Assembly: GCF_024231755.1 (NCBI RefSeq)
Contig: NZ_JAAEQH010000279.1
Coordinates: 62,001 to 126,000 of the forward strand
DNA length: 64,000 bases
Reading direction: 5' to 3'
DNA from: Neptuniibacter sp.
GTDB lineage: Bacteria; Pseudomonadota; Gammaproteobacteria; Pseudomonadales; Balneatricaceae
Under the pieces are notes generated by a model. It was not told where the DNA came from. It saw nothing but the letters and a program-made list of their open reading frames with translations, and made no database searches. Of the stretch, positions 21,520-63,356 are shown piece after piece. Every line of letters begins with the position of its first letter. Position 1 is the first letter of the stretch. The position numbers and the translations under genes are program-made.

Positions 21520-21536
21520 AAGTCACTCTCCAGCTT

Positions 21537-22529: not shown

Positions 22530-22715
22530 CTTCGGTGATCCTTTTGAAGTGGGCAGGGGCACGCCAGGTACAGCTTATTTCTGGAATTGCTCACAGCTGC
22601 TTAAACACGGTAACCAAGGCCTATAGCAGGCCCTGTAGTAAGTATTTGTTAATATTAGCAACTGCGCAAGGAACCGAAGTCAAGAAATTGAGAGATCCAG
22701 GTAGGTTGAAAGCCC
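22530..22715. other. Intergenic stretch without a recognised gene
   Basis: 186 bases between the substrate-binding protein gene and the hairpin of the small ORF. It should hold the promoter of the downstream minus-strand pair, but no convincing -10/-35 pair was seen. Confidence 0.4.
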
Positions 22716-24447: not shown

Positions 24448-26085
24448 TTATAGTTCAATCGGTTTATCTTTCGCTTCAAGGGGGATGGTAATCTTGATGT
24501 GGAAGCCGGATTCATTTGAAGGTATTAGCGCTATACGTCCTTCCAGTTGCCGTGAAACAATATTAAATACAATCGACATTCCGAGCCCGCTTCCTCCATT
24601 CCCGCGTTTGGTGGTGAAAAACGGTTCAAATAGTTTTTTCTGCTCTTCGTCGTTAAGGCCGCGACCATTATCAGAGTAGTACAGAGCTAGCTGTTCATTA
24701 TCCCTTTCAGCCCGGATAGTAATCTCACCTATCTCATTGTCTTCAAAGCCATGCAGAACTGAGTTATTGATCAGATTGCTCAGTACCTGATGCAACGCAC
24801 CTGGGTAGCTGTTCATCTCAATATTGTCGGGTATGTCGAGTGAGAAAGTAACATTCTGATGTTTGTATTGTGGGAAGATGGTCTGTATGGATGATTCCAA
24901 ATAATTCTTGAGATTGAATTTATGTTTGGCATCGTAGCTCTGATCCATTGCGATCTCTTTAAAACTTGAGATCAGCCTGCTGGCTTTAACAATATTGGTT
25001 TCAAACAACAGGCTTGATTCATCAATATCATCCAGAAAAGTTTTGAGATCTGATTGAGTAAGAGTGCCTTGCTCAAGTTTTTTTCGAATCAGTTTGCTTC
25101 CCTCGTCCTGATAGCTGGCAGCGGTTCGACAGACACCGATAGGTGTATTGATCTCATGGGCCACACCGGCAACCATATTTCCCAAGGCTGCCATCTTCTC
25201 GGATTCGATCAGCATATCTTGTGCTGAGCGTAAATCATCCATCGATTTTTCCAGCTGATCTGTGCGTTCCGATACTAAATCTTCCAGATGCTCTTTGTAG
25301 TTACGCTCTACTTGTAGCAGGTTATCGCGTTCTTTTACCAGAGATTGTAAGTGTTGTTTATGTTCATTCAGCTCTTCGTAGGAACTATGAAGGCTTTCGC
25401 GCATATGGTTGATTGTATGGGCTACAGAATCTATCTCATCAGGTTTATTCGGATTCTCTTTTTTCTGCAGTTGCAGGGGCGTTCGCAGATTATCGAAATC
25501 AAGGGTGCTGATATATTCTGAAATGGTGTGTAGGTGCCGGGTAATTAATACCCAGATCAGGAGCAGGATAAAACCTGATACAAGGAAGGTTTTGACCGCA
25601 TTACTGACCAGAATAACCCCTGCCTTATTTATCAGTCGCTTGTATACATTGTCGATACTGGCAGTGACAACCAGAGTGCCGATGTTCTGTTCAGAAATAC
25701 CTTGTGCCCGGTATGAAAGCGGAAATTCCATCGTCCTTGTGTTGGTTGATACATCATCCCCCTGCTGCCAGTTGGTTTCTCCAGATACCTTAATCGAAAC
25801 GTGTTCGATATCGGGTAATTGGCTCAGTCCTACTAGCTGGGTTTCAATCTGTGAGTCATCAAGAGACCAGACACTGAGCGTAATCGCTTGCAGATATGAA
25901 GTTCGGATATTGGTGAACTGTTGTTCGATTCGGCTGATATCCACCCGGTAATCAAGTATCAACTGAAGACTTGTGCTGAGTAGAGTGAAGCAGGAGCTGA
26001 ACAGGACAATGAGGATAGCAAAACGTTTACCCAGTCGACTGGCAATCACTTTGCGGGAGGTTTTTTGAGATGAAGCCTCAGACAT
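24448..26085 (-). CDS. Membrane sensor histidine kinase
   Basis: 545 residues: TM1 (about 20-42), periplasmic sensor, TM2 (about 155-180), HAMP-like segment, long coiled coil (about 215-285), HisKA-like box with His at about 311 (VAGVAHEINTPIG) and HATPase domain with N-box (LINNSVLHGF), G1 (DNGRGL) and G2 (GNGGSGLGMSIV). It lies 15 bases downstream of the DUF3369/HD-GYP regulator gene, its probable partner. It resembles the kinase at 46379-48367 around the His box (HE-NTPIG and the following SFK-A-DQS). Confidence 0.92.
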   Translation of the reverse strand: MSEASSQKTSRKVIASRLGKRFAILIVLFSSCFTLLSTSLQLILDYRVDISRIEQQFTNIRTSYLQAITLSVWSLDDSQIETQLVGLSQLPDIEHVSIKVSGETNWQQGDDVSTNTRTMEFPLSYRAQGISEQNIGTLVVTASIDNVYKRLINKAGVILVSNAVKTFLVSGFILLLIWVLITRHLHTISEYISTLDFDNLRTPLQLQKKENPNKPDEIDSVAHTINHMRESLHSSYEELNEHKQHLQSLVKERDNLLQVERNYKEHLEDLVSERTDQLEKSMDDLRSAQDMLIESEKMAALGNMVAGVAHEINTPIGVCRTAASYQDEGSKLIRKKLEQGTLTQSDLKTFLDDIDESSLLFETNIVKASRLISSFKEIAMDQSYDAKHKFNLKNYLESSIQTIFPQYKHQNVTFSLDIPDNIEMNSYPGALHQVLSNLINNSVLHGFEDNEIGEITIRAERDNEQLALYYSDNGRGLNDEEQKKLFEPFFTTKRGNGGSGLGMSIVFNIVSRQLEGRIALIPSNESGFHIKITIPLEAKDKPIEL

Positions 26086-26100
26086 TGAATCGCCTCGCTC

Positions 26101-27660
26101 CTAATCAGGATAACGATTACAGATATCCAGAACGGTCTCTATATTATCTAAAAACAGTTTGATCAGCTCAGGATCGAACTGTTTTCCGCTCTCTTTTTGC
26201 AATAGACCGAGTGTTTTTTCCAGGGGCCAGCTTTCTTTATAGCAGCGTTCACTGTTGAGTGCGTCAAATACATCCGCCACTGCTGTAATACGGCCTGATA
26301 GGGGGATTTCCTCTCCTTGTAGCCCTCTGGGATAACCGCTTCCGTCCCACTTTTCGTGATGGCTGCCAGCAATGCGTGCCGCCAATTGGAAAATAGGCCT
26401 GTCAGAGCTTGCAAGCATCGCTTCGCCTATTTCAGCGTGGGTTTGCATCAACTCCCACTCATCAGGATTCAGCTTTCCGGGTTTGTTGAGAATAGCATCA
26501 GGGATAGCGATTTTTCCCAAGTCATGCAAAGGGGAGGCTAAGCGAATATTCTCTACAAATAGTTCATTAGTGCCGAACAGGGATGCAAGTAAGGCTGAAA
26601 TTTCTGCCACCCTCTTAACATGGGCACCGGTTTCCTTGGAACGTTTCTCAACTGCCTCGCCAAGGATATAGATAAGCTCTTCCTGGGTTTCCTGAATCTC
26701 CTCTTTGAGGAGAAGGGTATGGTAAGTAGAGATAACATCAGCGCTGAAAATTTCCAGTAGGTGTTTAGCGTGCTCGTCTATTTGGGAGTGATGTTTAACG
26801 TAAAGTAGGCTTTCTGAGCCTGACATACCTGAATGGTAAGCTACATAGCCCTGTTTTGTGTGAATTGAGCATTTCTCGAGCAGCGCTGTGTTAAAGACCT
26901 CTTGCAACTCTTTTGGCAGCTCATCCTCATGGTATTGCATCATGCTTTTATGTGAATGGCTTTTGTCCTTAAGAAGCGGTTCCAATGCCCCTGTAGCTGC
27001 CAGAACATTAAAATGGGCTTCATTGCGATAAATACGCCGGGTAATGCAGTAGATAGAATCGGGCTCGAACTGTAAAAGGGAAATTAATTGATCAAGTATG
27101 GCTGAAGCCAGCATTCCCAGACTTTTTACTTCATTTATTTTGCCGATTGCATGTATCACCGTTTCCAGTGAGGTGCGCTGATGATCAATAGTAAGAATAT
27201 CTCGATAGGAGCGTAAAGAAGAGTAAACCAGTGTCTTCAGTTTCGTGCCAGTGAGTTCAGTTTTATCCTTGTAATCATTTATATCGTATTCCTGAATAAT
27301 CTTCTCTTCGGGGGCTTGTCCAGGCTGACCGGTACGTAGCACGATTCGGGTTATATGGTTTTGCAGCTCACCACGGATAGTGCGAATTAACTCCAGACCC
27401 GCATGGTCCGACTCCATCACCACATCAACCAGCGCCAGAGCGATATCAATACCCTCTTGTTTCAGAATAGTTCGGGCTTCGGCAGCAGAACGGGCTTCAA
27501 TCAGTTGTACAGGTCGGTTGTCGAAGGAGAGATTCTTCAACACTAATCGGGTGACTTTATGTACGCTGTCTTCATCATCAACGACAAGCACCTTCCAGGG
27601 AGGATTACTATTTTGCTCAACGGTAGGTTTATCTTCTGCAAATAATAGGGTGTCGCTCAT
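26101..27660 (-). CDS. Response regulator REC-DUF3369-HD-GYP (c-di-GMP phosphodiesterase)
   Basis: 519 residues. The receiver (about 20-145) has DDE and Asp in LALVDVVMESD, plus a K in the C-terminal part (NDYKDKTEL). A DUF3369 domain follows (about 165-320), then HD-GYP (about 330-510) with HDLGK (about residue 378), HH(E) and GSGYPRGL (about residue 440). HD-GYP enzymes hydrolyse c-di-GMP. The gene is first in an operon with the histidine kinase. The N-terminal half closely resembles the regulator at 49501-51732, which has a different output. Confidence 0.92.
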   Translation of the reverse strand: MSDTLLFAEDKPTVEQNSNPPWKVLVVDDEDSVHKVTRLVLKNLSFDNRPVQLIEARSAAEARTILKQEGIDIALALVDVVMESDHAGLELIRTIRGELQNHITRIVLRTGQPGQAPEEKIIQEYDINDYKDKTELTGTKLKTLVYSSLRSYRDILTIDHQRTSLETVIHAIGKINEVKSLGMLASAILDQLISLLQFEPDSIYCITRRIYRNEAHFNVLAATGALEPLLKDKSHSHKSMMQYHEDELPKELQEVFNTALLEKCSIHTKQGYVAYHSGMSGSESLLYVKHHSQIDEHAKHLLEIFSADVISTYHTLLLKEEIQETQEELIYILGEAVEKRSKETGAHVKRVAEISALLASLFGTNELFVENIRLASPLHDLGKIAIPDAILNKPGKLNPDEWELMQTHAEIGEAMLASSDRPIFQLAARIAGSHHEKWDGSGYPRGLQGEEIPLSGRITAVADVFDALNSERCYKESWPLEKTLGLLQKESGKQFDPELIKLFLDNIETVLDICNRYPD

Positions 27661-36572: not shown

Positions 36573-37154
36573 ATGCTGAAAAAACTAACGCTGGCTGCGG
36601 CCATAGCAGCAACAACTGTAGCTATTACAGGTTGTCAGGAAGAAGCTAAATCTGTGGGTATCGACCCAAGTAAACACACAGATGCACTGTTCGCAGTCAT
36701 GAATGCAGATCGTACTAATTATACGAAGCTGATCGTAGGCCGTTTGGGACCTAAGGGGGCTGATGCTGTTCTTCCAGTCGAACATTGGAAAGATGTTGAT
36801 AATGGCGTACCTCTACCAGCTCAGATGTTCCGTGCTGGTTACGAAGCAGTTTCAGAAGTAACTGACGATTTCACTTACTCCCTTCAGTCAATCTGGCCAA
36901 TCAACTCTCAAAACGCACCACGTACTCCAATGGAGAAAGAAGGCCTGGAATACGTTGCTAAGAACCTGGGTAAAAACTTCTACGGCACTGAAACACTGGG
37001 TGGCAAAGAGTACTTCACTGCAGTTTATGCAGACGTAGCTTCCGTTAAAGCATGTGTAACTTGCCACAACGGCCATAAAGACAGCCCTAAGACTGACTTC
37101 AAAATGGGCGACGTGATGGGCGGTGTAGTGATTCGTGTTCCTCTAGGGGGCTAA
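36573..37154 (+). CDS. Tll0287-like (DUF3365) haem-c lipoprotein
   Basis: 193 residues. Lipobox AITGCQEE (about residue 21) indicates a lipoprotein. The body is a PAS-like Tll0287/DUF3365 domain with a single c-haem motif CVTCHNGH (about residue 162) followed by SPKTDFKMGDVMGG, close to the C-terminus. Such domains act as haem sensors or electron carriers. Almost the same motif occurs in the hybrid kinase at 60402 ([23 protein letters not shown]). GGGGAA precedes the ATG. Confidence 0.85.
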   Translation: MLKKLTLAAAIAATTVAITGCQEEAKSVGIDPSKHTDALFAVMNADRTNYTKLIVGRLGPKGADAVLPVEHWKDVDNGVPLPAQMFRAGYEAVSEVTDDFTYSLQSIWPINSQNAPRTPMEKEGLEYVAKNLGKNFYGTETLGGKEYFTAVYADVASVKACVTCHNGHKDSPKTDFKMGDVMGGVVIRVPLGG

Positions 37155-39507: not shown

Positions 39508-40668
39508 GTGTTTAGGAGTCGCATAGAGGTGGTATCGGTTTTTAGGGGATCATTTTTTCAACCCGCAAGCAGTGTTTTAAAACGTCTCATGCTTGTATTG
39601 ATAAGTTTGTTGTTCTCCTCTTCGGTATATTCTAAGCAGGTTGTGAACGCTCTCTATATTCCTCTGGCAGATCACTATGCCGCATTAGTGGCATACGAAC
39701 GTTATGGACAACAGATGAAGCATGCGGATTTTCAAATTGAACAGATGAAAAGCTGGGATCTGTTAAGGGCTAAATTTCAGGCCGGTTTAGCAGATATGGC
39801 TTATGTAATGAGCCCACTGGCGATGCAGATGTACATGGATCAACCCGATTTCCGATGGATCGGATTGATGCACAGGGATGGCAATGCGCTGGCGATAAAC
39901 GAGTTGCTTAGGAAACGGATTAAACTCCCCGCTGATCGTTCTGAGCGTAAACCTGATGCTTCTGTTGCAGACGCTTTGCGACAGGCTCATCAGGATACAG
40001 GCCAATCTACTGAAATCGGAATGCCTCATCTCCAGTCAACGCATACTGTAGTGCTTTATCGTTACCTTAAGGAACATGGCCTGAGTCTGGGTTTACAACC
40101 TGATAGCAGGAATGAGGTTTTGGCGATATCCGTTGCACCACCGAGATCACCTGTTTTTATTAAAGGACAAAGTAACAGGGCCCGTGCCGCAGCCTTCCAG
40201 CAGTCCCTGCCTTGGGCAGATATAGTGGAGGCCCGTGGGTTTGGCCATGTCGCCTGGTACTCGAAGGATGTAATGCCATGGCCCAGCGGCCATGTTGAGT
40301 GTATTACGCTTGCGACTGACAAGGCGATTGCCGAGAAAGAAGCAGCTCTTCGTGAAGTAATGCACTACATCCACGAAGCAGGAGCAGACATTGAGATGGC
40401 TCGGTGGCAGGGGGGTGAAGCGATGCAGGAAATTGTGTCGATAGTACGTAAACATATCCCCGCACATTCAAAGGCTGCCATTATTGCCAGCCTGGATCCC
40501 CGCTTAAAGGTTATTAACTATCTGAACCTGAACGTGGATAAGGCCGGTCTTAAACAGATAATGGACTACGCAGTTGAAGGAAATATCTTGAAACGAACCA
40601 TTGATATAGATGAATTTGCAGATACTCGTTTCTCGGTTGAAATGCTGAACAGTGGACAGGTGCAGTAA
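39508..40668 (+). CDS. Orphan NrtA/CmpA-like substrate-binding protein
   Basis: Up to 386 residues; the frame opens at GTG 39508 but GTG 39532 (AGGAG ten bases upstream) or ATG 39589 directly before the signal peptide ([18 protein letters not shown]) are also possible. The mature part ([62 protein letters not shown]) is of nitrate/bicarbonate-binding NrtA type. No permease or ATPase nearby. The next gene begins two bases after its stop and encodes a Cache-domain hybrid kinase, so it is probably a periplasmic ligand sensor for the kinase. Whether the ligand is nitrate is unproven. Confidence 0.82.
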
Positions 40669-40670
40669 AT

Positions 40671-43600
40671 ATGAATAAGGATTCGACATTGACGGCAAGG
40701 GAGAAGCTATCAAGGCCCTTCAAATTCAAGTCACTTAACCTGCAATTGTTGCTCTGGTTTCTGCTGCTTGCATTAGTACCCCTTACCCTTGTTTCATGGC
40801 TAAGTTATCAACAAGCGGAGAAAAGCCTTCTGCACGCTGCAGAAGACCGCTTGCAGCAGTCAGCGGTGATGACAGATCAGTTTATCCGCAACTGGTTCGA
40901 TTACCGCTGGATGGATCTGCGTCGACAGTCCGAAGCACGTAATACCATTTTAATGCTGGAATCTCTTAATCAGGGTTTTAATGAAAGAGGGGGAGCAGTA
41001 GAAGAGTATGTGGGCAGTTTTGATTGGGTGAATAGAACCTCTGTTTACCAGGCTGATTTCCTCACTCTTCAACGGCGCTACGATTACATTCAGGATGTGC
41101 TGTTGCTGGACATGCAGGGAAATGTCCTCTTTAGCGTCGCTAAAGGTGAGGACCTGGGAACAAACTTGTTGGAGGGGCAACATAGAAGTAGTGAGTATGC
41201 CAATGCTGTACTTAGATCGATCCGTACCGGCGAGGAGCGTTTTTCCGGTTTTATAAAGGATAAGAGTTCAAATCTTAAATTAACGGGCTTTATGGTTGCC
41301 CCAATCATCGATTACAACGGTGATTGGCAGGGAGTGTTTGTTTTCCAACTTAAGTTAGATCGTATTCTAGGTTTGTTGAGCACGGACAGTGAGCAGTCAT
41401 TTGTTCACTACCTTATAGGTCTCGATGGAAAGCTGCGGACCCCTATTAATAATAATTGGGATGAGGTACTGGAAAAGCCGATACAAACCGAAGCTTATTT
41501 AGATTTCGTGGAAAAGCATGCTTCATATCAGGATCTAACACCCCCTGCACTGCAATATATCGGACCCTACGGTAAAGAGGTTTTGGGTGTTAACTACGTT
41601 ATTCAGATCGGTAATGTGAAATGGGCGTTGGTTAGCGAACTTGACTATGATGTTGCTTTATCTGCTGCGCATTGGTTAGGAAGGATCACACTGATATTTA
41701 CGTTGCTCACGGTCATGGTGGTGTTACTGCTGTCACTTTGGGTTGCAAGAAGAATAACTGATCCTATTACAGCTTTGGCTACGACAAGCCTAAAAGTAGC
41801 GGAGGGGGAAACCAGTCAGCGGGTTGATGTTAAATCTGCAGATGAAATTGGTCAGTTGGCCGAAGCGTTTAACCACATGCTGGAAAAACGTAAAGCCCAC
41901 GAAATGGAACTTCAGTTTAGTAGCATCCAGGCCAATGAGGCTTTATTGGAACTGGAAGAGCAGAAGTTTGCTTTGGATCAGCACTCCATTGTGGCGATTA
42001 CTGATGTCCAGGGAACGATCACTTACGCTAACGATAAGTTCTCCCAGATCAGTGGTTACTCCCGTGAAGAACTGATTGGACAGAATCACCGGTTGCTTAA
42101 CTCAGGATATCACCCGCGTGAGTTCTTCATAGAGATGTACCGTAAAATTTCTGCTGGTCATGTTTGGAACGCAGAAGTTTGTAACCGTGCTAAGAATGGC
42201 AGTATTTACTGGGTTGATACCACTGTAGTGCCTTTTACAAATAAGGAGGGCAAACCGGTCAGTTATATCGCTATCCGCAGTGATATAACGAAACGAAAGC
42301 AGATTGAATTGGAAGTTCAGGAAGCACTGAGCCTCCAAGAGTCGATACTGGAATCTACAGATAATGGCATTCTGGTAACTCGTCTGGACGGCGCGATTAT
42401 TCGATATAACAAACGTTTTGCCGACCTGTGGGGGTTCCCAGAACTCTACAATGAAAACTCCCGTGTGTTGGGGCCTATAGCCAGGCAGTTAGTGAACCCC
42501 GATGAATTTGTGCCTAGCATCAAGGCTCTTCTCAGCAGTGAAAGCAAGCGTGATTATGTAACGTTAAGTCTGAAAGACGGGCGTACCTATGAACAGGCCT
42601 CATTACCGATGTATGTGGCGGGAGAAAATGTTGGACGAGTCTGGAGCTTCCGGGATATCTCTAAACGAATTAAAGCGGAAAAAGAGATTATCCAGGCTCG
42701 TGATCTGGCAGAGGGGATGCAAGAGCAACTGGTTGATGCCAAACGTCGTACCGAGCTGGCGGTTGAGTCTTCCGGCATGGGAATATGGGAGTGGGATCTA
42801 CAGACCAATCAGCTGGATTGGGATGAGCGGATGCATGAAATCTACGAAACCCCGGCAGCAATTATCCAGCAGAATTTGAACTTTGAACACTGGCGTAACT
42901 GTGTTCATCCTGAGGATATGGCAGCGGCAGAAGCTTCTCTGCAGCGTTCGGTTGAGTTAAAAAAAGAGTGGCGTTATCAGTTCAGGCTGCTACTACCGGG
43001 TGACAAAATTAAATACGTCAAAGCCACTGCAGCAGTGTTACTTGATGAGCAGGGTAATGCTCTAAAAATGATTGGTAGTAACCAGGATATTACCGTAGAA
43101 AGAGCGATGCAGCGTCGTCTGGTCGCTCTTAAAGAGGAAGCCGAGCTGGCAAATACGGCAAAAAGTGAATTCCTAGCCAACATGAGCCATGAGATCCGAA
43201 CGCCTATGAATGGTGTATTAGGTATGTTGGGACTGCTTTTGAATACACCATTGGATGATGTGCAGCGACATCGTGCGGTTATTGCACAGAGTAGTGCCAA
43301 TGCATTGCTGACCTTGATCAACGATATTCTGGACTTCTCCAAGGTCGATGCCGGTAAGTTGGAGTTGGAGAACATCGAATTCAACCTGCGGGGGATGCTG
43401 GGCGAATTTGCTGAAGCGATGGCACTACAAGCTCAGGATAAGGGGCTTGAGCTTATTCTGGATCTGACCGGAGTTGAGCAGTCTGAAGTTAAAGGTGATC
43501 CAGGACGTCTGCGCCAAATTTTGACCAATTTGGTTGGGAATGCAGTTAAATTTACAGAACAGGGCGAGGTTCTGATTCGTGCGGTATTGGAGCCATCTGC

Positions 43601-45467
43601 CAACCATAAGCTGCAGTTTACCTGCTCTGTTATCGATACGGGTATGGGTATACCAGATGAGAAACAGCCAGATCTGTTTGATTCATTCAGTCAGGTTGAT
43701 GCTTCCACTACGCGCCAGTTTGGTGGTACTGGGTTAGGGCTCGCTATCAGCAAAAAGCTCAGTGAGCTTATGGGCGGAAGTATCAGCGTCCAGAGTAAGG
43801 TTGGAGAAGGTAGTTGTTTCGAGTTCAGCATCCTGTTGGAACCAAGTGCACATTCGACAGCGGTGCTACCAAGTGTAGAGCTCAGTGAGTTAAATCTACT
43901 GGTGGTGGATGATAATGCTACTAATCGGGAGGTGCTGACGGCCCAGCTGCGGTTATGGGGAGCAAATGTATTTGAGGCTGATGGTGGAGAAACAGCACTG
44001 CAAGAGTGTGAACGGCATTACGGTGACACCGGGCGAAGCTTTGATGTGATCTTCTTGGATATGCAGATGCCTGAGATGACTGGGGCTACGTTGGGACAGA
44101 ACATTAAAATAGATGAACGTTTCCAAAACTCAAAATTGGTAATGATGACCTCTATGGCACATAGGGGAGATGCTCAGCGTTTTGCTGATCTGGGCTTCAG
44201 TGCATATTTCCCGAAACCTGCCACTACTTCAGATATTTTTGATGCTTTGCAGGTGGTAATGGATGGTGGTGAGGCATACCAAAAAGCCCAGCCATTGGTT
44301 ACTCAACACAATCTTAAAGAGCTCCGCTTTGAGTCAGAATCTCAATCTACTGCTGTTCCTGAGAGCGGAACTAAAATTCTGGTGGTAGAGGACAACCAGG
44401 TTAACCAAATGGTGATTACCGGTGTATTGCAGGAGCTAGGTTTTGCCGCGGAGGTTGCGGGTAACGGGGTTGAAGCCGTTGAAAAACTGCAGCACTCAGT
44501 TCCTGAAAACAGATACAGCCTGATACTGATGGATTGTCAGATGCCTGAGATGGACGGTTATGAAGCGACCCGATGGATCAGATCAGGCAAAGCGGAGCAG
44601 AGTAATATCTCAATACCTATTATTGCGATGACGGCCAATGCGATGGCGGGGGATAGAGAGAAATGTATTGCAGCGGGTATGGATGACTATCTTAGCAAGC
44701 CGGTAGTGCCCGAAGAGCTGAATCGTAAGTTAGAACGATGGCTTGATATTCAGTCGTCCGATGTTACAACAGACATCTCCAGTGAACAGGCCCTTTCTGA
44801 TGTCCCTGCGGAACCAGAGTTAAACACAGAACTGCAGACCAGCACTATCGCAGAGATAATGTCTGAGGATACTTTGCCTATTTGGGATCGTCAGGACGCG
44901 ATCTCAAGAATTATGGGAAAAGAAGAATTATTGGCCTCTCTGCTAGATATTTACTTTGCTGATGTTGACCCGCTTCTTCAGCAGATTGGGCCCGCGGTGG
45001 AACAAAAGAATTGGGCAGAAGTTGGACGCCTTGTACATGCTCTCAAAGGGATGGCGGCAAACCTATCTGCTATGCAGTTGCATCAGATATCTGTAACTCT
45101 GGAAAAAGCCGCTAAAGCGGATGACGAGGCAGAGGTTATTAGGTTGCTGCCCGACTTTATGCAGGCAGCTGAGTTAGTTAATACTGAATTTACCCAGTAT
45201 CTGGCTGAGAAGCAGAACACCGAAGTAGAGTCATTAAGTAAAGAAAAGATGACTGAAATGCTAATCCAGATTGCCAAAGCAGTAATTGAAAAGAGTTATA
45301 TAGATACCTCCGACTTTGATGCTTTATGGAGTTGTGATGCATCTGCTGAACTTACTGAACACCTGAGTGCTTTGCAAAGTAGTATTGGAGCATTTAACTA
45401 TAGCCGGGCGCTGGATAGCTTGAAGAAACTGGAACAAATCATGGATCTCGATCTGCAACTGTCCTGA
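40671..45467 (+). CDS. Hybrid histidine kinase: Cache, HAMP, three PAS, HisKA, HATPase, two REC, HPt
   Basis: 1598 residues. TM1 (about 22-45), periplasmic Cache sensor, TM2 (about 345-365), HAMP (about 366-418), PAS1 (about 435-540), PAS2 (about 560-660), PAS3 (about 695-820), HisKA with H-box [11 protein letters not shown] (about residue 838), HATPase (about 945-1060), two receivers (LLVVDDN about 1075; ILVVEDN about 1236, both with a phospho-Asp) and HPt ([11 protein letters not shown], about 1453). A full multi-step phosphorelay in one chain. It lies between a substrate-binding protein gene and a REC-GGDEF gene, its probable sensor partner and final target. The TorT-TorS system is a known analogue of such SBP-kinase pairing. 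Confidence 0.92.
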
Positions 45468-45477
45468 GGAGTTTGGT

Positions 45478-46362
45478 GTGAGTGAAACCGCAAAACCTGT
45501 AGTGCTGATCGTTGATGATGCACCTTCAAATATTCAGGTATTAGCTGCGTGCCTGAAAGAGCATTATCAGATTAAAGTTGCTACCTCTGGCGAAGATTGT
45601 CTCGGCTTTATTGCTCATGGCCCTAAGCCTGATCTGATTCTTCTCGATATTGAGATGCCGGGGATGGATGGCTATCAAGTTTGTCAGCGAATTCAGCAGG
45701 ACTCGCAGAGTAGTGATATCCCAGTGATTTTTGTAACGGCACGGGACGAGGATCGTAACGAAGAGATGGGCTTGCAGCTTGGAGCGGTTGATTACATAGC
45801 TAAACCGGTCAAACCCGCGATTGTGTTGGCTAGGGTAAATACACATATCACTCTGAAAAAACAACGGGATATGTTACGTGAAATTGCCCTAAGAGATCAG
45901 CTTACAGGCTTGTATAACCGCCATTATCTACTGGAAGCTGCTGCTCAGAAAATTGCTGAATCACGCCGACATAGTTCCCCGGTAAGTCTGCTCATAATGG
46001 ATATTGATCATTTTAAGCAAGTTAATGATCAGCAAGGGCATCTCATTGGAGACTCTGTACTGAAGCATGTTGCTACGGAATTGGCTGATCAGTGTCGTCG
46101 GGAGGATATTGCAGCCCGCTTTGGTGGTGAAGAATTTGTTATGTTGCTCTGCCAGTGTGACTTAAACGCTTCGAAACAAAAGGCAGAGCAACTTCGCTTG
46201 GCGCTGGAGCAACTGAAGCCGGAGGGGTTATTAGTCACTGTAAGTATTGGTGTAACCCAGTTACAGAACAGTGATAGTAATATTGATCAGTTGATAGAAC
46301 GGGCAGACCAAGCCCTTTATAAGGCAAAAGAACAGGGCCGAAACAGGGTTGAATCGTTCTAG
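45478..46362 (+). CDS. Response regulator REC-GGDEF (diguanylate cyclase)
   Basis: 294 residues; GTG start with GAGGAG upstream. Receiver (about 8-125; DD, Asp in LILLDIEMPGMDG, K in IAKPVKP) and GGDEF domain with GGEEF (about residue 215) and the inhibitory I-site RRED five residues before it. It makes c-di-GMP when phosphorylated, most likely by the HPt of the upstream kinase, 10 bases away, and is feedback-inhibited by product. Confidence 0.93.
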   Translation: MSETAKPVVLIVDDAPSNIQVLAACLKEHYQIKVATSGEDCLGFIAHGPKPDLILLDIEMPGMDGYQVCQRIQQDSQSSDIPVIFVTARDEDRNEEMGLQLGAVDYIAKPVKPAIVLARVNTHITLKKQRDMLREIALRDQLTGLYNRHYLLEAAAQKIAESRRHSSPVSLLIMDIDHFKQVNDQQGHLIGDSVLKHVATELADQCRREDIAARFGGEEFVMLLCQCDLNASKQKAEQLRLALEQLKPEGLLVTVSIGVTQLQNSDSNIDQLIERADQALYKAKEQGRNRVESF

Positions 46363-46378
46363 AAGCAGCGCTTCAAGG

Positions 46379-48367
46379 CTAGGATGCCTGTTCATCTTCA
46401 GGATATATTCCGTTTTCTTCCTCCTCCGGTTTAGTGACTTCACAAGGCATTCTTATTTGCATTGAGGTTCCTTGCCCCGGTTCGCTACTGACAGTGATAG
46501 TACCCTGAAGAAGATTATTCACAAGGTTGTGTACGATATGTAGGCCTATGCCGCTGCCCCCTTGGCCCAGCTTTGTAGTGAAAAACGGATCAAAGATAGA
46601 GGTTTGTTTATCTAGAGGAATACCCAGGCCATCATCCTCTACCGTCAGAAGAACCTGATATCCGTCGATGCGTGCTGCATTAATATTGATAGTGCCGGAT
46701 TGGTTATCAGGGAACCCGTGGACGAGTGCGTTTTGAACCAGGTTGGTTATGATCTGGGCTAATGCACCGGGGAAACTATCCATCTTGATACTTTCCTCAA
46801 CTGTCAGATTGACCTGTACCCGGGTTTTTTTCAGCATAGGGATCAGAGTAATAAGGATCTCATCCAGCAACTGTTTTAGTATGAAAGGGCGTTGACTAGA
46901 GCTTGATTGATCCACAGCTACCTGCTTAAAGCTTCTAATCAGTTCCGATGCCCGCTCCAGGTTGCGCATCAGAATCTGATTCCCTGATTCTGTTTCAGCG
47001 ATAAAGGTATCAAAATCGGATTTTTTAAGTTTGTTGTCATGTAGCAGTTGGCCGACCCTTTGTGAATTTTCAGCCAGCGTGCTACTAGCCATCATGCTGT
47101 TGCCAATCGGTGTATTCAGCTCGTGTGAGAGCCCCGCAACCAGCGCCCCCAAGGCGGCTAGTTTTTCCGATTGAATTAGCTCGTCCTGCGTAATCTTAAG
47201 GTTGTGTAGAGCATGATGTAATTCGGTATTGGTTTGACGTAGGTCCTCTGTGCGTTCTTCAACCCGATGTTCCAGTTCTGCGTTCAACTGACAGATCTCT
47301 TGCTCACGTTTATTGATCGCTTGACTGGTGACTTTCAGGCTTTCTCCAAGCCAGTTTAACTCACGTATGCGAGAGGCTTTTGGATCTATCATGTACACCC
47401 CCTCGGCTAATGCTTGCGCCAGTTTAGTATTATGGCTAAAGCCTGAAATGAACTCTTTTGACAGCAGTGAACCGGTAACACCTGCGGCAAGCATACCGAT
47501 CAGCACAGCGACAAGAAGTATCTGATTTATTGCACTCTGTTCCGCTTCAATTTGTAATCGGTCCTGAGCGGCGATCACCATCCAGTTCAACTCGGGAATA
47601 ATGGCAGCAGTCCCAAAAAGGTCATCTTCCTGAAACTGAAGCGGCAGGCTAACGTTGTCTCCGGAATCAGTTCTTTTGACCAGCTCATAGTCACTGAGGT
47701 TGAGCTGCTGCAGACTATATTCCAGGTTAGGGTGGGCGATCAGTTGACGTCCTTTGTCCAGGATCATTACCGTCACGTCATATTCGGCTGCCAAGTTAAA
47801 AACCAGTTTGGGCAGTTCGTCAACAGATATCTCACCGATAATCACGCCGTCTAACAGTGGTTGAGCATAAGCAACTGATAAGCGCCCGCTCACAGCTGAG
47901 AGGAATGTTTCGGTCCATACTCCCCGGCCAACTGAGCGAGCTTGTTTGTAGCGTTCGGAGTAACTCAGATCAAGACCAAGGAAATTGGGGCGAAGATACT
48001 GTTGATAATCAGGCAATCCGATATGTTCGATTTTGCCCTTCTCATCTGTCAGATAGATCGCTTCAAAATAACTTTGATTGCTAGCATAGAGGTCTAGCAG
48101 CTCTTCTATGCTCTCATCTGGGAAGTTAGTTTGAATAGAAAAAGAGGCTAACACTTGCATGTCAGTGGCAGCATTATCTAGATAGGCTTTAACTTGTCCA
48201 GAGATAGAGGTGGCCAGAGCTTTTTGGTCCAGACTGTGGGTTTGCTCAATTTTGGGTAGTAAAAAAATCAGGGAAAGAACCCCAACAACCAACAGTGGAA
48301 TTATCGCCACTAAAGCAAACTGAGAGGAAAGAAATAAGCGTAAGGGCCAGGCTTTTTGTGTGTTCAT
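46379..48367 (-). CDS. Cache-domain sensor histidine kinase
   Basis: 662 residues: TM1 (about 10-32), dCache-like periplasmic sensor (Y-rich, with LIAHPNLEYSL and WMVIAAQDR), TM2 (about 280-300), short linker, coiled coil, His box with His at about 411 (VAGLSHELNTPIG) and HATPase (LVQNALVHGF; DDGLGI; GQGGSGIGLHIV). Its ATG overlaps the stop of the substrate-binding lipoprotein gene by one base. The order regulator - SBP - kinase on the minus strand suggests that the SBP presents ligand to this kinase, which then signals to the regulator at 49501-51732. Confidence 0.9.
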   Translation of the reverse strand: MNTQKAWPLRLFLSSQFALVAIIPLLVVGVLSLIFLLPKIEQTHSLDQKALATSISGQVKAYLDNAATDMQVLASFSIQTNFPDESIEELLDLYASNQSYFEAIYLTDEKGKIEHIGLPDYQQYLRPNFLGLDLSYSERYKQARSVGRGVWTETFLSAVSGRLSVAYAQPLLDGVIIGEISVDELPKLVFNLAAEYDVTVMILDKGRQLIAHPNLEYSLQQLNLSDYELVKRTDSGDNVSLPLQFQEDDLFGTAAIIPELNWMVIAAQDRLQIEAEQSAINQILLVAVLIGMLAAGVTGSLLSKEFISGFSHNTKLAQALAEGVYMIDPKASRIRELNWLGESLKVTSQAINKREQEICQLNAELEHRVEERTEDLRQTNTELHHALHNLKITQDELIQSEKLAALGALVAGLSHELNTPIGNSMMASSTLAENSQRVGQLLHDNKLKKSDFDTFIAETESGNQILMRNLERASELIRSFKQVAVDQSSSSQRPFILKQLLDEILITLIPMLKKTRVQVNLTVEESIKMDSFPGALAQIITNLVQNALVHGFPDNQSGTININAARIDGYQVLLTVEDDGLGIPLDKQTSIFDPFFTTKLGQGGSGIGLHIVHNLVNNLLQGTITVSSEPGQGTSMQIRMPCEVTKPEEEENGIYPEDEQAS

Positions 48368-49482
48368 TACTCACCCATTACAACAAATTGTCCATTCTTT
48401 ATCTGGGTCATATAAGTGATACTTTGTGTATCACCAAAGCGATCCATAGCCACAACCCCTTGGACGCCTTGAAAATTATTCAGAGCGAGTAAGCTTTGTT
48501 TCAATGAATGGCCGCTCTTTCTCTGCTTAAGAGCTGCCATCACCATTGTTGCGGAGTTATAGCAGTACATGGCAGGGAAGCCAGGTTCTTGCTGAAAACG
48601 CTGTAGATACTCATTTTTGAATTTAATGAATCTCGGAGTTTCACTTTCCCTGTTAATGTATTGGGCAACATAAAGGCCCTCTACATAACTGCCGCCCAGC
48701 TCGATAAGCCTTTCTGTACCCGCCCACTCTGCTGCAAGCATTACTAGATTTGGTTTGATCTGTTTCAACTGTTTATTCAGCAGAGCGGCATCAACTGAGT
48801 TCATAACAAGCACTACCGCTTCAGGAGAGGTTCCAATAATACTGTCAGCCAGACTGGAGAAATCAGTATCGTTGCTCGATGCGAATGTTTCAGAGATAAC
48901 TTTTTTTGAAGCGTTTTTTGTGAACTCCGAGTTGAAGCCATTGGCCCAATCACGGGTGTATGCTTCATTACCGAGATCAATCACAATTGTTAGTTGAGAT
49001 ACTTCCGGGTGTTTATTCGTTAGAAGTTTAGCCGCTTTTGCCGAATGAGAATTGATGGCAGATAAGGGCCTTAGAAAATAATCATCGAGGGCGGTCAGTT
49101 TGTCCGTTGTGACGGTGCAGGCCATCATCACCGTTTCAGCTTTATTCATCTGATCGACAGTTGCCATCGCCATAGCGCTGGTCATGGGGCCAATCACTGC
49201 ATCAACATTGGCGTTGAGTAGTTCAGATATCCCTTTTTTAGCAACCTCTGGGTTTTGTTGATCATCTTTGAGAATTACTTCAATGGGATGGCCATCGATC
49301 CCTCCCCGTTTATTTTGTTGTTCTACAGCCAATAGGAAACCATTGCGACCGGCGATGCCTAGGTCAGCAACCCGGCCGGATGTGCCTCCAATAAATCCGA
49401 TCTTTATCGGTTCGGGATCGGAGCAACCGATCAGCAGTAGTAGACCACTTAGCAAAACCAATCGGAGGGATAATCTCATCAC
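48367..49482 (-). CDS. LivK-like substrate-binding lipoprotein, sensory context
   Basis: 371 residues; lipobox LLLIGCSDPEP (about residue 20). Type I periplasmic-binding fold of the Leu/Ile/Val (Peripla_BP_6) family: IKIGFIGGTSGRVADLGIAGRNGFLLAVEQQNKRGGIDG and MTSAMAMATVDQMNKAETVMM. The ligand is unknown, probably an amino acid or amide. No ABC permease genes adjoin. It is translationally coupled to the kinase gene, arguing for a sensory partner. Confidence 0.88.
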   Translation of the reverse strand: MMRLSLRLVLLSGLLLLIGCSDPEPIKIGFIGGTSGRVADLGIAGRNGFLLAVEQQNKRGGIDGHPIEVILKDDQQNPEVAKKGISELLNANVDAVIGPMTSAMAMATVDQMNKAETVMMACTVTTDKLTALDDYFLRPLSAINSHSAKAAKLLTNKHPEVSQLTIVIDLGNEAYTRDWANGFNSEFTKNASKKVISETFASSNDTDFSSLADSIIGTSPEAVVLVMNSVDAALLNKQLKQIKPNLVMLAAEWAGTERLIELGGSYVEGLYVAQYINRESETPRFIKFKNEYLQRFQQEPGFPAMYCYNSATMVMAALKQRKSGHSLKQSLLALNNFQGVQGVVAMDRFGDTQSITYMTQIKNGQFVVMGE

Positions 49483-49500
49483 TAATCAACCTACTTATGC

Positions 49501-51732
49501 TTATCTGCGTGTATGTTGAAGCAACCACTGTTCCAGTTGTTCCAGCTCCATCGGTCGGCAAAAAAAGTAGCCTTGAGCCTGAAAACAGTTAAGGTCTTTC
49601 AGGCATTGTGTCTGCTCCTCTGTTTCTACGCCTTCTGCAATAACGGACATCTGCAGGCTACGTCCCAGATTAATGATCATCTCAGGAATGTAAGTGGTAC
49701 TTGTTGGATCAATCATCTTGTCGATGAATGATTTATCGATCTTCAGACGATCGAACGGAAGTTTTTCCAGGTAACTGAGACAGGAGAAACCGGTGCCGAA
49801 GTCATCAATGGCTACCTTGACTCCGAGATTATGTAACTCATGTAAAATTTCCCGGACATTTTCCGTTTCCATCATGGCAACCGATTCAGTGACTTCAAAC
49901 TCAACTTGCCCCGATTTTATTGGACTTGCTGCAAGGCAGCTTTGGACCATCTTCAGGAAGTTGGGGTGCCTGAACTGGACTGCAGAGATGTTTACTCCCA
50001 TCTGCAGACCTAGCTGAAAGCGTTTTTCGAGAGTCGTTAGATCTTGTAGTGCGGTTTTAATTGCCCATTCACCCAGAGGCACAATCAGACCAGAGCTCTC
50101 TGCAACAGGGATAAACTGATCGGGCGGAATCATACTGTTATTTTTAGTGCGCCAGCGCATTAGGGCTTCAACGCCTATGATTTTTCCGCTCTGTAAGTCT
50201 ATCTGAGGTTGGTATGCGAGAAACAGTTCTTGGTCGGTATGGGCTTTTCGCAAACCCTGCAGCAATAACATTCGCTGATGGGTTTCTTCCTCTATTTCTC
50301 GCGTATATTCAATGCAATCCCCACGTACAATATCTTTAGCGCGTTTTAGCGCGATGTTGGCACGTTTGATGGCATTGTTACCGCTAATATTTGCATCCTG
50401 TAAGACATAGTATCCCTGTGTGATCGAGATCATCTGTTCATTGCCAAACAGTTCGAAGGGCTGTGACAGGATTCGGTCGATTAGTTCAGGGGTCAGGACC
50501 TGAGTCGGCCCCATTAGACCGAATGTATCGCCGGAAAGTCGACTGGTAAATACTTCAGCTGGCAGATCCTGGATCAGTCGTTGGGCAACCAGCCTGAGTA
50601 GCTCATCACCAGATTCAGCCCCAAGGGTGTCGTTGATGCCACTGAAGTGATCGATATCTACCAGAATAATGATCAGGTTTTTAAATTCCTCCTCCATCAC
50701 CTCATCGATATGTTTGGCGAAAGAAACCCGGTTAGGGATATCAAGCAGTGAGTCGTAATATGCGTAGTTATGTAAACGGTCGAGAATGGTGACATTATCC
50801 AGACAGATTGCGATGTTACTGCAAAACACTTCAAGCAGCTGTTGTTCTGTCTCTTCCAGGGAGCGTTGGATATCCAGGTAGAGCAACATATCGTCGCCAT
50901 AGCCATTGGGAAAATACAGGGTACAGGCATTATCGCTCTGACTGTTCGCCTGGCGTGAAATGGAGTCAACCAGAAGTTCACGGACCTGTGTATTCTGAAC
51001 TTTAGATACCTGGGTATTAATGCTGTTTTGTAGCTGATCTGATGCTGCAACTACAACAAAATCTTCAGGAGCATAGGTTAGCTGAGCTTCTTTATTCTTG
51101 TTACGAAAGCAGATCAACCCCTCGGCGGGAATGCCTAATACAGCTGCAAGCTGAGTGATTATACCGTTCGCCAGCTCTTGAATACCGTGCATTGACATAA
51201 GTTCACTGGATGCACGAACTATCACTTCAAGGCCTTTTTTACTAGTGGTGATTGTGGCGAGTTGTGAGTAAGAGCGAAGTGCACTGGTGACGCAGGTAAA
51301 CAGCCCGGTTCGGGTTAAATCAGCTTTGTTTTTGTAATCATTAATATCGTACTGCTGGATTACCTCCATCTCTGGGGCATAACCCGGTTGACCAGTACGC
51401 AGAACTATCCGGATATTGCTTAACTCTAACTCTTCGCGGATGGTTCTTACCAGATCCAAACCAGCACGATCATTTTCCATCACCACATCGAGGAGTATGA
51501 CAGCGATCTCTGGTTCATCCTGAAGTATCTGAGTGGCTTCAGCTGCTGAATATGCATGAAGAAACTCAAGAGGGCGATGCATAAAACTCAGTCCCTTCAG
51601 ACTAAAGCTGGTTGCATGATGTACCTCTCCATCATCATCAACAATGAGGATTTTCCAAGGCTTTGAACTTATGACTTGTGCTTCCGAATCCTCAGGATCT
51701 TCTTCGGCAAAGAAAACGAGTTCGTCCGACAT
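49501..51732 (-). CDS. Response regulator REC-DUF3369-GGDEF-EAL (degenerate GGDEF)
   Basis: 743 residues: receiver (about 27-145; DDD and Asp in VILLDVVMEND), DUF3369 (about 170-310), GGDEF domain with SGDTF instead of GGDEF (about residue 400), so probably not a cyclase, and an EAL domain with intact EAL (GVEALMRW, about residue 520). I predict a phosphorylation-controlled c-di-GMP phosphodiesterase. The REC-DUF3369 half is closely similar to that of the HD-GYP regulator at 26101-27660. Confidence 0.9.
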   Translation of the reverse strand: MSDELVFFAEEDPEDSEAQVISSKPWKILIVDDDGEVHHATSFSLKGLSFMHRPLEFLHAYSAAEATQILQDEPEIAVILLDVVMENDRAGLDLVRTIREELELSNIRIVLRTGQPGYAPEMEVIQQYDINDYKNKADLTRTGLFTCVTSALRSYSQLATITTSKKGLEVIVRASSELMSMHGIQELANGIITQLAAVLGIPAEGLICFRNKNKEAQLTYAPEDFVVVAASDQLQNSINTQVSKVQNTQVRELLVDSISRQANSQSDNACTLYFPNGYGDDMLLYLDIQRSLEETEQQLLEVFCSNIAICLDNVTILDRLHNYAYYDSLLDIPNRVSFAKHIDEVMEEEFKNLIIILVDIDHFSGINDTLGAESGDELLRLVAQRLIQDLPAEVFTSRLSGDTFGLMGPTQVLTPELIDRILSQPFELFGNEQMISITQGYYVLQDANISGNNAIKRANIALKRAKDIVRGDCIEYTREIEEETHQRMLLLQGLRKAHTDQELFLAYQPQIDLQSGKIIGVEALMRWRTKNNSMIPPDQFIPVAESSGLIVPLGEWAIKTALQDLTTLEKRFQLGLQMGVNISAVQFRHPNFLKMVQSCLAASPIKSGQVEFEVTESVAMMETENVREILHELHNLGVKVAIDDFGTGFSCLSYLEKLPFDRLKIDKSFIDKMIDPTSTTYIPEMIINLGRSLQMSVIAEGVETEEQTQCLKDLNCFQAQGYFFCRPMELEQLEQWLLQHTRR

Positions 51733-60401: not shown

Positions 60402-63356
60402 ATGTTATTTAAAGGGATTTCCGTAAGAGCGGCGACTTTGCTTTTTGTGTTAGCTGCTATGGTTGGTGCAACCATGGTGTTTATTGCTTACTGGCATACT
60501 AAGAACATTGAAAGAGCTGCTCTGGAGCGTGCTGCTGCTTCATATTCCCATGCCATTGGGGCATTTCGCAGTTTCTATTCCGCTGAGGTGTTGAGTAAAT
60601 TACATGGCAGCGGTGTAACCGCTAGTCATGACTACAAAGGTAAGCCTGCAACGATTCCTATTCCGGCAACCATGACCATCGATCTTGCCAGAAAAATTAA
60701 TAGCCGTGATGGTCACATCAATGTATCTGTGATCAGTGAACATCCATACCCCTGGCGGCCAAAGCGTGATCTGAGCCATTTCGAAAGGCAGGCGTTTACC
60801 TGGTTTAACAGTAGTGCAGAACACACGTATAGCGAGACTTTGGATATTGATGGTGAGGAATTCCTTGGTTTTGCCTCACCGATGCGTATGTCAGAGAGCT
60901 GTGTTGCTTGTCACAATAGCCATCCGCAAAGCCCGAAGCGTGATTGGAAAATGGGGGATGTGCGAGGCTTACAGGTTGTGTATATGCCGTTGACTGCGAC
61001 GGGAATGGGCAATCAGCTTGGGCTATCCTATCTGATCGGTTTTATTATCCTGTCCTTTATGGGAGCTTTCTCCGTTATTCTCTGGCTGACCAATAATAAT
61101 CAGTTGGCGTTTGCCGAGTTGGATCAGAAAACCAATAAGCTTGAAGGTGCTCTGGATCAGTTGGCTCAGGCGAAAGATGCAGCGGAAGACGCTAACCGTG
61201 CCAAGAGTGATTTCCTCGCAAACATGAGTCACGAGATTCGTACACCGATGAATGCAATTATCGGTTTAAGTCATCTGGCTCTGGACTCGGATCAGGATAG
61301 TGCTAAGCAACATAGCTATTTCAAGAAGATCAATACTTCGGCTTCAAATCTACTCAACATCATTAATGATATTCTCGATTTTTCAAAAATAGAGGCTGGG
61401 CATCTTGAAATTGAGTCGGCTGACTTTGAGTTGGATAAACTACTACAGAGTGTCTACGACGTTAACTATATTCGAGCGGAAGATAAGGGAATCTACTTCC
61501 GTATCCATAGGGATTTTTCCATTCCGAACATTCTTAAGGGGGATGTGGTTCGTCTGAATCAGATTCTCACTAATCTGATCAGCAATGCAATTAAGTTCAC
61601 TGAAAAAGGTGGAGTACAAGTGGATATCAGTCCAGTTGCTATTGCAGATGAGGAGATCAGATTGTGTATCAAGGTAAGTGATACTGGTTTGGGAATTGCC
61701 GAGGATAAACTCGAGTCTCTTTTTGAAGCGTTTACTCAGGCTGATGCCAGTACTACACGCCGTTTTGGAGGGACAGGGCTTGGGCTTTCCATTACGCGCC
61801 AACTGACTGAGTTGATGCATGGGGATATCGATCTTGAAAGTACTCCCGAGAAAGGAACGATCATCAGTGTTGAATTGCCTTTCCCAATTTCATCTGCAAT
61901 GGAACAAAAAGAGTACCTACTTAATGACAAGCGTCTACTGGTTATTGGTTCTAGCCCAGAGCTTGTGGCGTTGTTGCATAGTCTGCGTTTGTCATATGAA
62001 TCCAAAGCTTACGGTATGGATCAACTACATGATGTGGAAACATATCTGAGGAGCAATCTGGTGGATTGCCTGATTCTGGTTGATCAAAGGGATGAGCTGG
62101 ATCTGATCGATTATGTTGCTCAATTACGTAGGAAAATACCCGAAGTTGTCATGTACCCGACGGTTCTGATCACTACGCCACGTAATGCAAAAGCGATACA
62201 GTCTGATCATAACTATGACCTTTTCACGATCACTGATCTCTATACCCCATCTCTGTTGCTGGATACCTTACAGAATGCATTAGCTTCGGAGCAGAATGAT
62301 TATGAGGTTGATTTCCGCAGCAGTTCTCGCAATCAGATAGAGGATATTCTGGGTGCAAGGGTTCTACTGGCAGAAGACAACCCGATCAATACTGAGGTGG
62401 CAAAAGGTATTCTTGAGAAAATGGGTGTTAAAGCGACCTGTGTTGAAAATGGCAAAGAGGTTTTGGAAATTCTCTCCAAGCAGAAGTTTGATCTACTGTT
62501 GCTCGATATGCAGATGCCGGTGATGGATGGATATGAGGCGGCGGCAGCGATCAGATCAGATAGTCGCTTTGATGAGCTACCAATTTTAGCTCTCACTGCC
62601 CATGCAATGGCTGGAGATGAGCAGCGTAGCCGAGAATTGGGGATGAACGGGCATATCACTAAGCCTATAGACCCCGACGAGCTGTTAAACGCATTGGTTA
62701 AATGGATAAAACCCGGGGAGAGGCACAGTGAAAAAGTAGTTTTGGTCGATAGTGGTACGCAGGGTGTCCCAGAGCAACTACCGGGCTTGAACCTTCAAGC
62801 GGGTCTGAGTCGGTTATCTAATGATGTTCAACTCTACTGTAACTTGTTGAATAAATTTGAACAGAGCTATGGAGATGCACTGAACAAGGCCTCACTGTTG
62901 TTTACCACGGCAGATCTGGCTGGTTTACAGGCATATTCACACGGGCTAAAAGGTGTAGCTGCCAATCTGGGGGCTGATGACCTCTCAGCCGTGGCGGCTG
63001 AAATTGAGCAGTTAAAGGCGCTGCCTGAGGACCAAGGTCAGCAGCTATTGCAGGATTTAGAACAGGCCATTGTGACTTTGAAGCAGGGTATCGAATCGTT
63101 GTATGAGGTGGTGGGCCTCAGTTCACCCGATGAAGGTGAGCCCCTTACTGTCGATGAGGGTGAACTGTTATCTGATCTTCAGCGGTTATTGGACCTGGTT
63201 ACCACCGGAGATACGGGATCTCTGAGTATGGCTGAAACTGTCAAATCTAAATCCGCTGGTTCTGCTAATGCGGGTATGATTGAGCAGATTACCAACGCCG
63301 TCTCTGATTTTGAGTTTGAAAAGGCTGAGGATCTCCTCCAGCAGCTGCTAAGGTAA
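60402..63356 (+). CDS. Hybrid histidine kinase with haem-c Tll0287-like sensor
   Basis: 984 residues. TM1 (about 8-27); periplasmic Tll0287/DUF3365 domain with one c-type haem motif CVACH (about residue 166); TM2 (about 203-227); HisKA H-box [11 protein letters not shown] (about 274); HATPase (about 385-500; [22 protein letters not shown]); a degenerate receiver (about 510-630) with no obvious phospho-Asp; a canonical receiver (about 650-765; [23 protein letters not shown]); HPt ([13 protein letters not shown], about 845). GAGG lies upstream of the ATG. A haem-based redox or gas sensor is inferred. Confidence 0.93.

Follow-up and report, generated by a model that had tools for sequence, protein, structure and literature searches.

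The 64,000-nucleotide stretch analyzed here, which we call the window (positions 62,001 to 126,000 of contig NZ_JAAEQH010000279.1, assembly GCF_024231755.1, from the gammaproteobacterium Neptuniibacter sp.), contains at positions 46379-51732 of the minus strand three adjacent genes that encode a response regulator with a receiver (REC), DUF3369, GGDEF and EAL domains, a LivK-like lipoprotein of the Peripla_BP_6 family of solute-binding proteins (SBP), and a sensor histidine kinase with a dCache sensor domain. Comparison of the sequences and gene neighborhoods makes it likely, in our judgment, that these genes form a LuxPQ-like two-part co-receptor that is wired to the breakdown of cyclic di-GMP (c-di-GMP). 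That the three proteins constitute one signalling unit, as already suggested in a preliminary description of this DNA, is well supported by the conserved gene order, by a variant of the dCache domain that is matched to this group of binding proteins, and by the lack of nearby permease genes (0/10).

The interval is filled exactly by three open reading frames (ORFs) of the same strand, in the order regulator (49501..51732; 743 residues), SBP (48367..49479; 370 residues from the ATG at 49479, with a GTG at 49482, three bases upstream, as a possible alternative start) and dCache kinase (46379..48367; 662 residues). The regulator and SBP genes are 21 bases apart, and the SBP stop codon shares one base with the kinase start codon in the sequence TAATG (48365..48369, minus strand). 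The adjacency of the genes on one strand and the one-base coupling of the kinase to the SBP are thus as first described, but the regulator gene, which had been placed last, is actually the first in the unit. Promoter-like consensus sites inside the unit number 4, compared with a mean of 10.4 in shuffled sequences, and terminator-like sites 4 compared with 6.4, counts that speak neither for nor against an internal promoter or terminator. The genome sequence is a draft of 384 contigs, with 88.66% completeness and 5.86% contamination; given that three other genomes of the genus hold the same genes in the same order, an origin of the unit from a foreign contig is disfavored.

Components of the predicted signalling unit

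The regulator matches EAL, GGDEF and DUF3369 in Pfam, and the DUF3369 match (PF11849; 155.2 bits against a cut-off of 27.2), which lies behind the receiver, assigns it to the DUF3369 response regulators; in NCBIfam, the general GGDEF domain is the sole entry above the cut-off. The Pfam Response_reg profile is not listed for the REC domain at E≤0.001. The receiver residues D32, D33, D82, T113 and K134 are invariant in a seven-row regulator alignment, and residues 26-135 of the structural model show alternating strands and helices of the receiver type. The DUF3369 region, modeled in the order helix-strand-strand-helix-strand-strand-helix, could be of the GAF/PAS type, with almost all structure matches falling on EAL chains.

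The site that corresponds to GGDEF reads SGDTF in the window protein, and each of the six SBP-linked DUF3369 regulators compared has a degenerate version of it (SGDTF in four, GSDTF and TSDIF in one each), so that neither this regulator nor its five relatives display the GG(D/E)EF signature of an active diguanylate cyclase. The motif residues of EAL phosphodiesterases are ExLxR, N, E, DD, K, E and Q; the window protein has ExLxR, N, E, DDFGTG, K, AEGVE and QG, and these motifs are kept in the five SBP-linked relatives. The EAL part also aligns to solved EAL domains, best to BifA (Z 34.1, root-mean-square deviation 1.8 over 254 residues). With a degenerate GGDEF site and a full set of EAL motifs, the regulator probably acts as a c-di-GMP phosphodiesterase. 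A bifunctional cyclase/phosphodiesterase is ruled out by the degenerate GGDEF site.

The SBP belongs to Peripla_BP_6 (156.9 bits against a cut-off of 31.7, E-value 1.4e-45) and has the type I SBP fold: among solved structures, leucine-type SBPs resemble its AlphaFold model (mean pLDDT 91.4) most (Foldseek query TM-score, TMq, 0.85 to both 3td9 and 4gnr). No named NCBIfam family matches it above the cut-off. In a phylogenetic tree, it falls into a clade of 14 SBPs that group apart from LivJ, LivK and the other sampled Peripla_BP_6 proteins (support 100/99 for the first 11 members and 94/93, below the starred level, for all 14); this wider tree omits L084, L092 and L099, which were present in an earlier one, and L082, which had no SBP match, is in neither. 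The protein contains the lipobox LIGC-SDPE, and a lipobox-like cysteine is found in 13 of the 14 clade members, as opposed to 1 of 19 other Peripla_BP_6 proteins (L083). The search pattern covered the first 60 residues of the longest frame and is open to both false matches and misses: the lipobox of L014 (LLQGC) escaped it, and it also matched inside the signal peptide of LivJ, which is not a lipoprotein. The clade member without a lipobox-like cysteine is L016.

Of the LivJ pocket residues, the equivalents of S79, T102 and E226 are retained in the window SBP, and Y18, Y202 and F276 are replaced by L, N and P, respectively. The E226 equivalent is replaced in L008, L016, L076 and L077, and that of T102 in L007, L009, L011, L016, L076 and L077. 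The pocket sequence of the window protein is compatible with a possible ligand that has the head group of an amino acid but a side chain of another kind. An SBP for the transport of branched-chain amino acids is disfavored by the altered side-chain pocket and by the lack of permeases.

In the kinase, Pfam recognizes dCache_1 and HATPase_c, with HisKA below the cut-off; the phospho-acceptor region reads HELNTP, and H415 and the N-box and G-box residues are invariant in a seven-row kinase alignment. No named NCBIfam family scores above the cut-off among the matches listed, and the dCache region matches solved chains weakly (best 0.0015).

Conservation of the trio and the matched sensor pair

Among the genomes of the family, 7 of 116, from 2 of 16 genera, have a match to the SBP (E≤1e-40). 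The regulator-SBP-kinase order and the strand recur in five relatives, three from the same genus (L006, L007 and L008) and two from another genus, g14, of the same family (L009 and L014), for which reason the trio is unlikely to be a chance assembly; the SBP and kinase genes are 3-4 bases apart in these five. Regulator and SBP are 40-67% identical to their counterparts in the five relatives. The kinase shows 51-57% identity to the three same-genus proteins and 36-37% over the whole alignment (45-48% over some 300 core residues) to the two from the other genus. The sixth SBP-positive genome of the family (L015) has a different arrangement, SBP-kinase-REC-REC-GGDEF-EAL.

In wider searches, the SBP clade is rare: beyond the window genome, it was found in 1 of 368 genomes sampled from the class, 2 of 292 from the order and 2 of 348 from the phylum, where membership was defined by thresholds between E≤1e-30 and 1e-65 that miss more distant members; a scan of genome contigs with the SBP returned one relative. 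In two genomes of another family of the order (G525 and G559), the SBP is followed by a dCache hybrid kinase and a REC-GGEEF protein with an intact cyclase motif. A 6.4-kb Rhodocyclaceae contig carries the SBP and a dCache hybrid kinase, with no c-di-GMP enzyme on it. In G276, about 120 bases separate the SBP gene from the next gene downstream, which stands among other kinase genes and encodes a kinase that matches dCache_1 below the cut-off. Of the two clade SBPs in G1003, one precedes a dCache kinase; the single one of G971 has no adjacent kinase. Altogether, 12 of the 14 clade SBPs are directly followed by a dCache-type kinase, so that, together with the overlap in the window, the linkage of the SBP gene to that of a periplasmically sensing kinase is, at the gene level, of the LuxPQ-like type. 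A c-di-GMP enzyme is encoded beside the SBP-kinase pair in 9 of 12 cases.

The pairing extends to the kind of sensor. A profile built from the dCache regions of four kinases of the genus matches 11 of the 12 kinases downstream of clade SBPs (7 of 8 when those used in building it are set aside) and none of 21 distinct related kinases from the fetched loci that are not downstream of a clade SBP. The latter set excludes kinases with a core match weaker than 1e-20 and counts a duplicated row once; it includes a kinase of L016 (6722-9091) whose gene immediately precedes an SBP gene. Nine of them, scanned with Pfam, have PAS, CHASE5, HK_sensor_dom_bact or no named sensor; three of the nine (L061, L068 and L069) show weak dCache_1 matches (26-32 bits against a cut-off of 45), and their sensors are, as judged from the sequences, Cache-like of another kind. 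Pairwise SBP distances correlate more closely with dCache distances (r 0.84; partial correlation 0.66 given the core) than with kinase-core distances (r 0.71; partial 0.22), over 11 pairs and with all of these values inflated by shared ancestry. The core itself varies: its identity to the window core is 42-60% in L006-L009, L014 and L108 and 17-22% in L015, L011, L076 and L077. Thus, as far as the sequences tell, the SBP and dCache domain behave as an evolutionary cassette that appears joinable to other kinase cores and other outputs, a cyclase included.

On the side of the output, 17 EAL-type DUF3369 genes were found in 38 genomes, and 15 of them share a same-strand cluster with a gene for a kinase that has the same core, five with the SBP gene between the two; the exceptions are L053 and L054. 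The latter locus, from G002, is instructive. Here the kinase and cyclase of the neighboring unit described below face the EAL regulator across 44 bases, no SBP match was found in the genome, and the dCache kinase is absent at the locus (the search for it was confined to this locus). The facing cyclase reads GGETF and may be impaired. In the regulator tree, the G002 protein nests within the genus clade of SBP-linked regulators, with the window regulator outside (99/99). Because an orphan regulator is nested inside an SBP-linked clade, the SBP and kinase were probably lost together in G002.

Signalling or transport, and the alternative explanations

The preliminary description had held that a link of the SBP gene with transport in relatives would speak against its scheme. 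Such a link is lacking for all 10 clade SBPs from ten genomes, none of which has a BPD_transp_2 permease within 6 kb, as opposed to 28 of 41 other Peripla_BP_6 proteins (E≤1e-30) encoded in these genomes; for 5 of the 10, the contig, at least 27 kb long, has no permease match at all. No BPD_transp_2 gene was found on the 160-kb contig of the window, which therefore shows no Liv-type transport linkage. A link does exist in one distant genome, G1003. Two related Peripla_BP_6 proteins (L083, with a lipobox, and L096, from G010 and G463) also lack BPD_transp_2 on their contigs and possibly represent another group of signalling SBPs.

We propose the following scheme. The lipid-anchored LivK-like protein would bind a small periplasmic solute and dock on the dCache domain of the kinase, altering its kinase or phosphatase activity, a step that the matched occurrence of the two partners supports. 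The kinase would then phosphorylate D82 of the regulator, as the gene clustering and intact residues suggest, and phosphorylation would set the activity of the EAL phosphodiesterase, as the motifs imply. The degenerate GGDEF domain, which would not synthesize c-di-GMP, may act as an allosteric site.

Each element has a precedent. In the Vibrio autoinducer-2 (AI-2) receptor, LuxP acts on the tandem PDC domains of LuxQ (PMC8534201), an arrangement that we propose here from the genes. The differences are that the SBP is a Peripla_BP_6 lipoprotein, the kinase lacks a receiver, and the output is a c-di-GMP enzyme; LuxPQ signals through LuxU and LuxO. The SBP profile matches 59 solved sequences (E≤1e-5), and LuxP is not represented in them. 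In Vibrio cholerae, the polyamine SBP NspS gates c-di-GMP synthesis or degradation by the GGDEF-EAL receptor MbaA from the periplasm (PMC8967002). MbaA is itself the membrane enzyme, whereas here a kinase and a response regulator intervene; a closer match to that layout is another unit of the window (19411-22562). VCA0210 of V. cholerae, an active phosphodiesterase, has a receiver and DUF3369 ahead of the catalytic domain (PMC4212101), which is HD-GYP there and EAL with a degenerate GGDEF here. In the BctC-BctE system, the ligand-loaded SBP interacts with the sensor kinase, so that SBP-activated kinases are known (PMC9602780); BctC also serves a transporter, and none is linked to the SBP in this window. 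With LivJ and LivK, the window SBP shares the fold and the three retained pocket residues, and it differs in being a lipoprotein from a separate clade, with no permease nearby and with Y18, Y202 and F276 changed.

Hence SBP-activated kinases, SBP-gated c-di-GMP receptors and REC-DUF3369 phosphodiesterases are known separately. In the open-licence literature, judged mostly by titles and the beginnings of abstracts, we found no description of an SBP-kinase-DUF3369 unit, nor of one sensor pair placed before a phosphodiesterase or a cyclase depending on the genome. The literature on DUF3369 regulators is sparse. The unit provides a specific and testable path by which a solute outside the cell could influence the breakdown of c-di-GMP. 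With somewhat less than an even chance, in our estimate, the lipoprotein SBP and its matched dCache domain would be a transferable and previously undescribed receptor cassette plugged into outputs that either degrade c-di-GMP (REC-DUF3369-GGDEF-EAL, in this genus and one more of the family) or make it (REC-GGEEF, in G525 and G559). One sensor pair stands ahead of breakdown in some genomes and ahead of synthesis in others, a natural experiment, and if the cassette is real, stimuli of related kinds could lead related bacteria into opposite lifestyles.

Several observations weigh against a co-receptor wired to c-di-GMP. The output is not universal, as L011 (a 6.4-kb contig), L016 and L108a have no c-di-GMP enzyme in the DNA covered; two clade members, L108b and L110, have no adjacent kinase; and G002 retains the regulator without this kinase at the locus. 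The L016 kinase is the single miss of the dCache profile, and the four kinases scanned outside the genus (L015, L016, L076 and L108) all score below the curated dCache_1 cut-off. The residue at position +2 of the lipoprotein is Ser, and of the 13 clade members with a lipobox-like cysteine, 1 has Asp there; by the Escherichia coli +2 rule, the Ser predicts the outer membrane, which is awkward for docking on an inner-membrane kinase. Furthermore, both clade SBPs of G1003 lie within 6 kb of BPD_transp_2 permeases, and gene adjacency can be misleading: for AgtS and AruS of Pseudomonas aeruginosa, no evidence was obtained that the kinases are activated by the neighboring SBPs (PMC11113362).

The last two points also count for an alternative in which the dCache kinase and EAL regulator are the functional pair and the SBP is a non-signalling protein of transport or scavenging that shares their operon. 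This explanation, which we regard as unlikely, draws further on 10 loci in which the same kinase core accompanies a DUF3369-EAL regulator without an SBP (L051, L052, L055, L057, L061, L063, L068, L069, L070 and L073). It has to contend, however, with the failure of the dCache profile to match these SBP-free kinases, with the absence of permeases around all 10 clade SBPs, with the joint absence of SBP and kinase at the G002 locus, and with the persistence of the SBP-dCache pairing despite a different core and output in L015, L076, L077 and L011. In L070 (2319-4269, from G005), the kinase gene beside the DUF3369-EAL gene is split over two ORFs by a frameshift or an assembly error.

In the G1003 neighborhood (L108, 6391-19368), the SBP-kinase pair precedes the genes of a transporter of the ATP-binding cassette (ABC) type, which comprises a PnrA-like SBP of its own, an ATPase and two BPD_transp_2 permeases. 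An amidohydrolase gene and the gene of the second clade SBP come next, and genes for a hydantoin-racemase-like protein and a class-V aminotransferase are also near. These genes hint at nucleobase-related chemistry and are a lead to the ligand class in this lineage only. A few kb from the clade SBP of G971 lies a set of peptide-type ABC genes, which likewise includes an SBP, of the SBP_bac_5 type.

Still less probable is that the regulator receives its input chiefly from a different kinase, for example the CHASE5 kinase of the window (24448-26085), the unit then being a branch of a network shared with the HD-GYP regulator at 26101-27660. The CHASE5 kinase does have the same kinase core (30% identity over the whole alignment; core profile match at 5.9e-77), and in G002, where the EAL regulator has no kinase of its own at the locus, a CHASE5 kinase is encoded about 10 kb away. 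Each regulator, however, has a kinase in its own cluster, in the window and in L006, and the residues that follow the phospho-accepting histidine differ between the two kinases (HELNTPIGNSMMASS vs HEINTPIGVCRTAAS).

The least probable alternative is that the SBP acts without contacting the kinase, for instance by delivering ligand to a directly sensing dCache domain, which may itself sense a second solute: dCache domains usually bind ligands directly and the sorting residue of the lipoprotein suggests the outer membrane, but an interface is suggested by the pairing of a single dCache variant with a single SBP clade, although co-inheritance could also explain this pairing.

The facing unit and other c-di-GMP genes of the window

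The co-receptor unit proposed here adjoins another, encoded on the plus strand, that consists of an NMT1_2-type SBP (39508..40668), a hybrid kinase with HAMP, PAS, HisKA and HATPase_c domains, two receiver stretches and Hpt (40671..45467), and a REC-GGDEF protein (45478..46362), all assigned with Pfam. The last reads RRED-IAARF-GGEEF, that is, a cyclase site with the RxxD motif of an I-site, and is a predicted diguanylate cyclase. The plus-strand unit ends at 46362 and the minus-strand unit at 46379, so that the two lie tail to tail, with 16 bp between the convergent stop codons of the cyclase and the dCache kinase (46363..46378). The divergent, back-to-back layout of the preliminary description is ruled out by these coordinates; its assignment of a cyclase to one unit and a phosphodiesterase to the other is borne out by the motifs (GGEEF with RxxD against SGDTF with an intact EAL).

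The facing arrangement is found in the window, in L007 (with 5 bases between), in L054 and, with a 3.9-kb gap, in L008; in L006, no gene of the plus-strand unit was found beside the EAL unit. The NMT1-type SBP matches 1 of 54 genomes, the one to which it belongs (E≤1e-20), and the kinase and cyclase, which other genomes of the genus also have, occur without it in G007 and G002. The facing of a cyclase and the EAL unit is thus more widespread than the SBP of the plus-strand unit.

The window contains two further c-di-GMP units, both on the minus strand. At 19411-22562, an NMT1/SsuA-like SBP gene lies directly upstream of a HAMP-GGDEF-EAL gene, in the NspS-MbaA-like layout mentioned above, and the same gene pair adjoins in L079 (G010). 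At 24448-27660, the CHASE5 kinase and the REC-DUF3369-HD-GYP regulator form a paralogous pair of the kinase and regulator studied here. With these units counted, c-di-GMP control in the window is a matter of a cluster rather than a simple pair. The suggestion that two ligands push c-di-GMP in opposite directions is accordingly weak and unsupported, given also that the NMT1-type SBP matched no genome but its own among the 54 searched.

Outside the c-di-GMP genes, a Tll0287-like domain is present in the window both as a stand-alone protein (36573-37154) and as part of a hybrid kinase (60402-63356); the stand-alone protein is encoded beside cytochrome c and globin genes.

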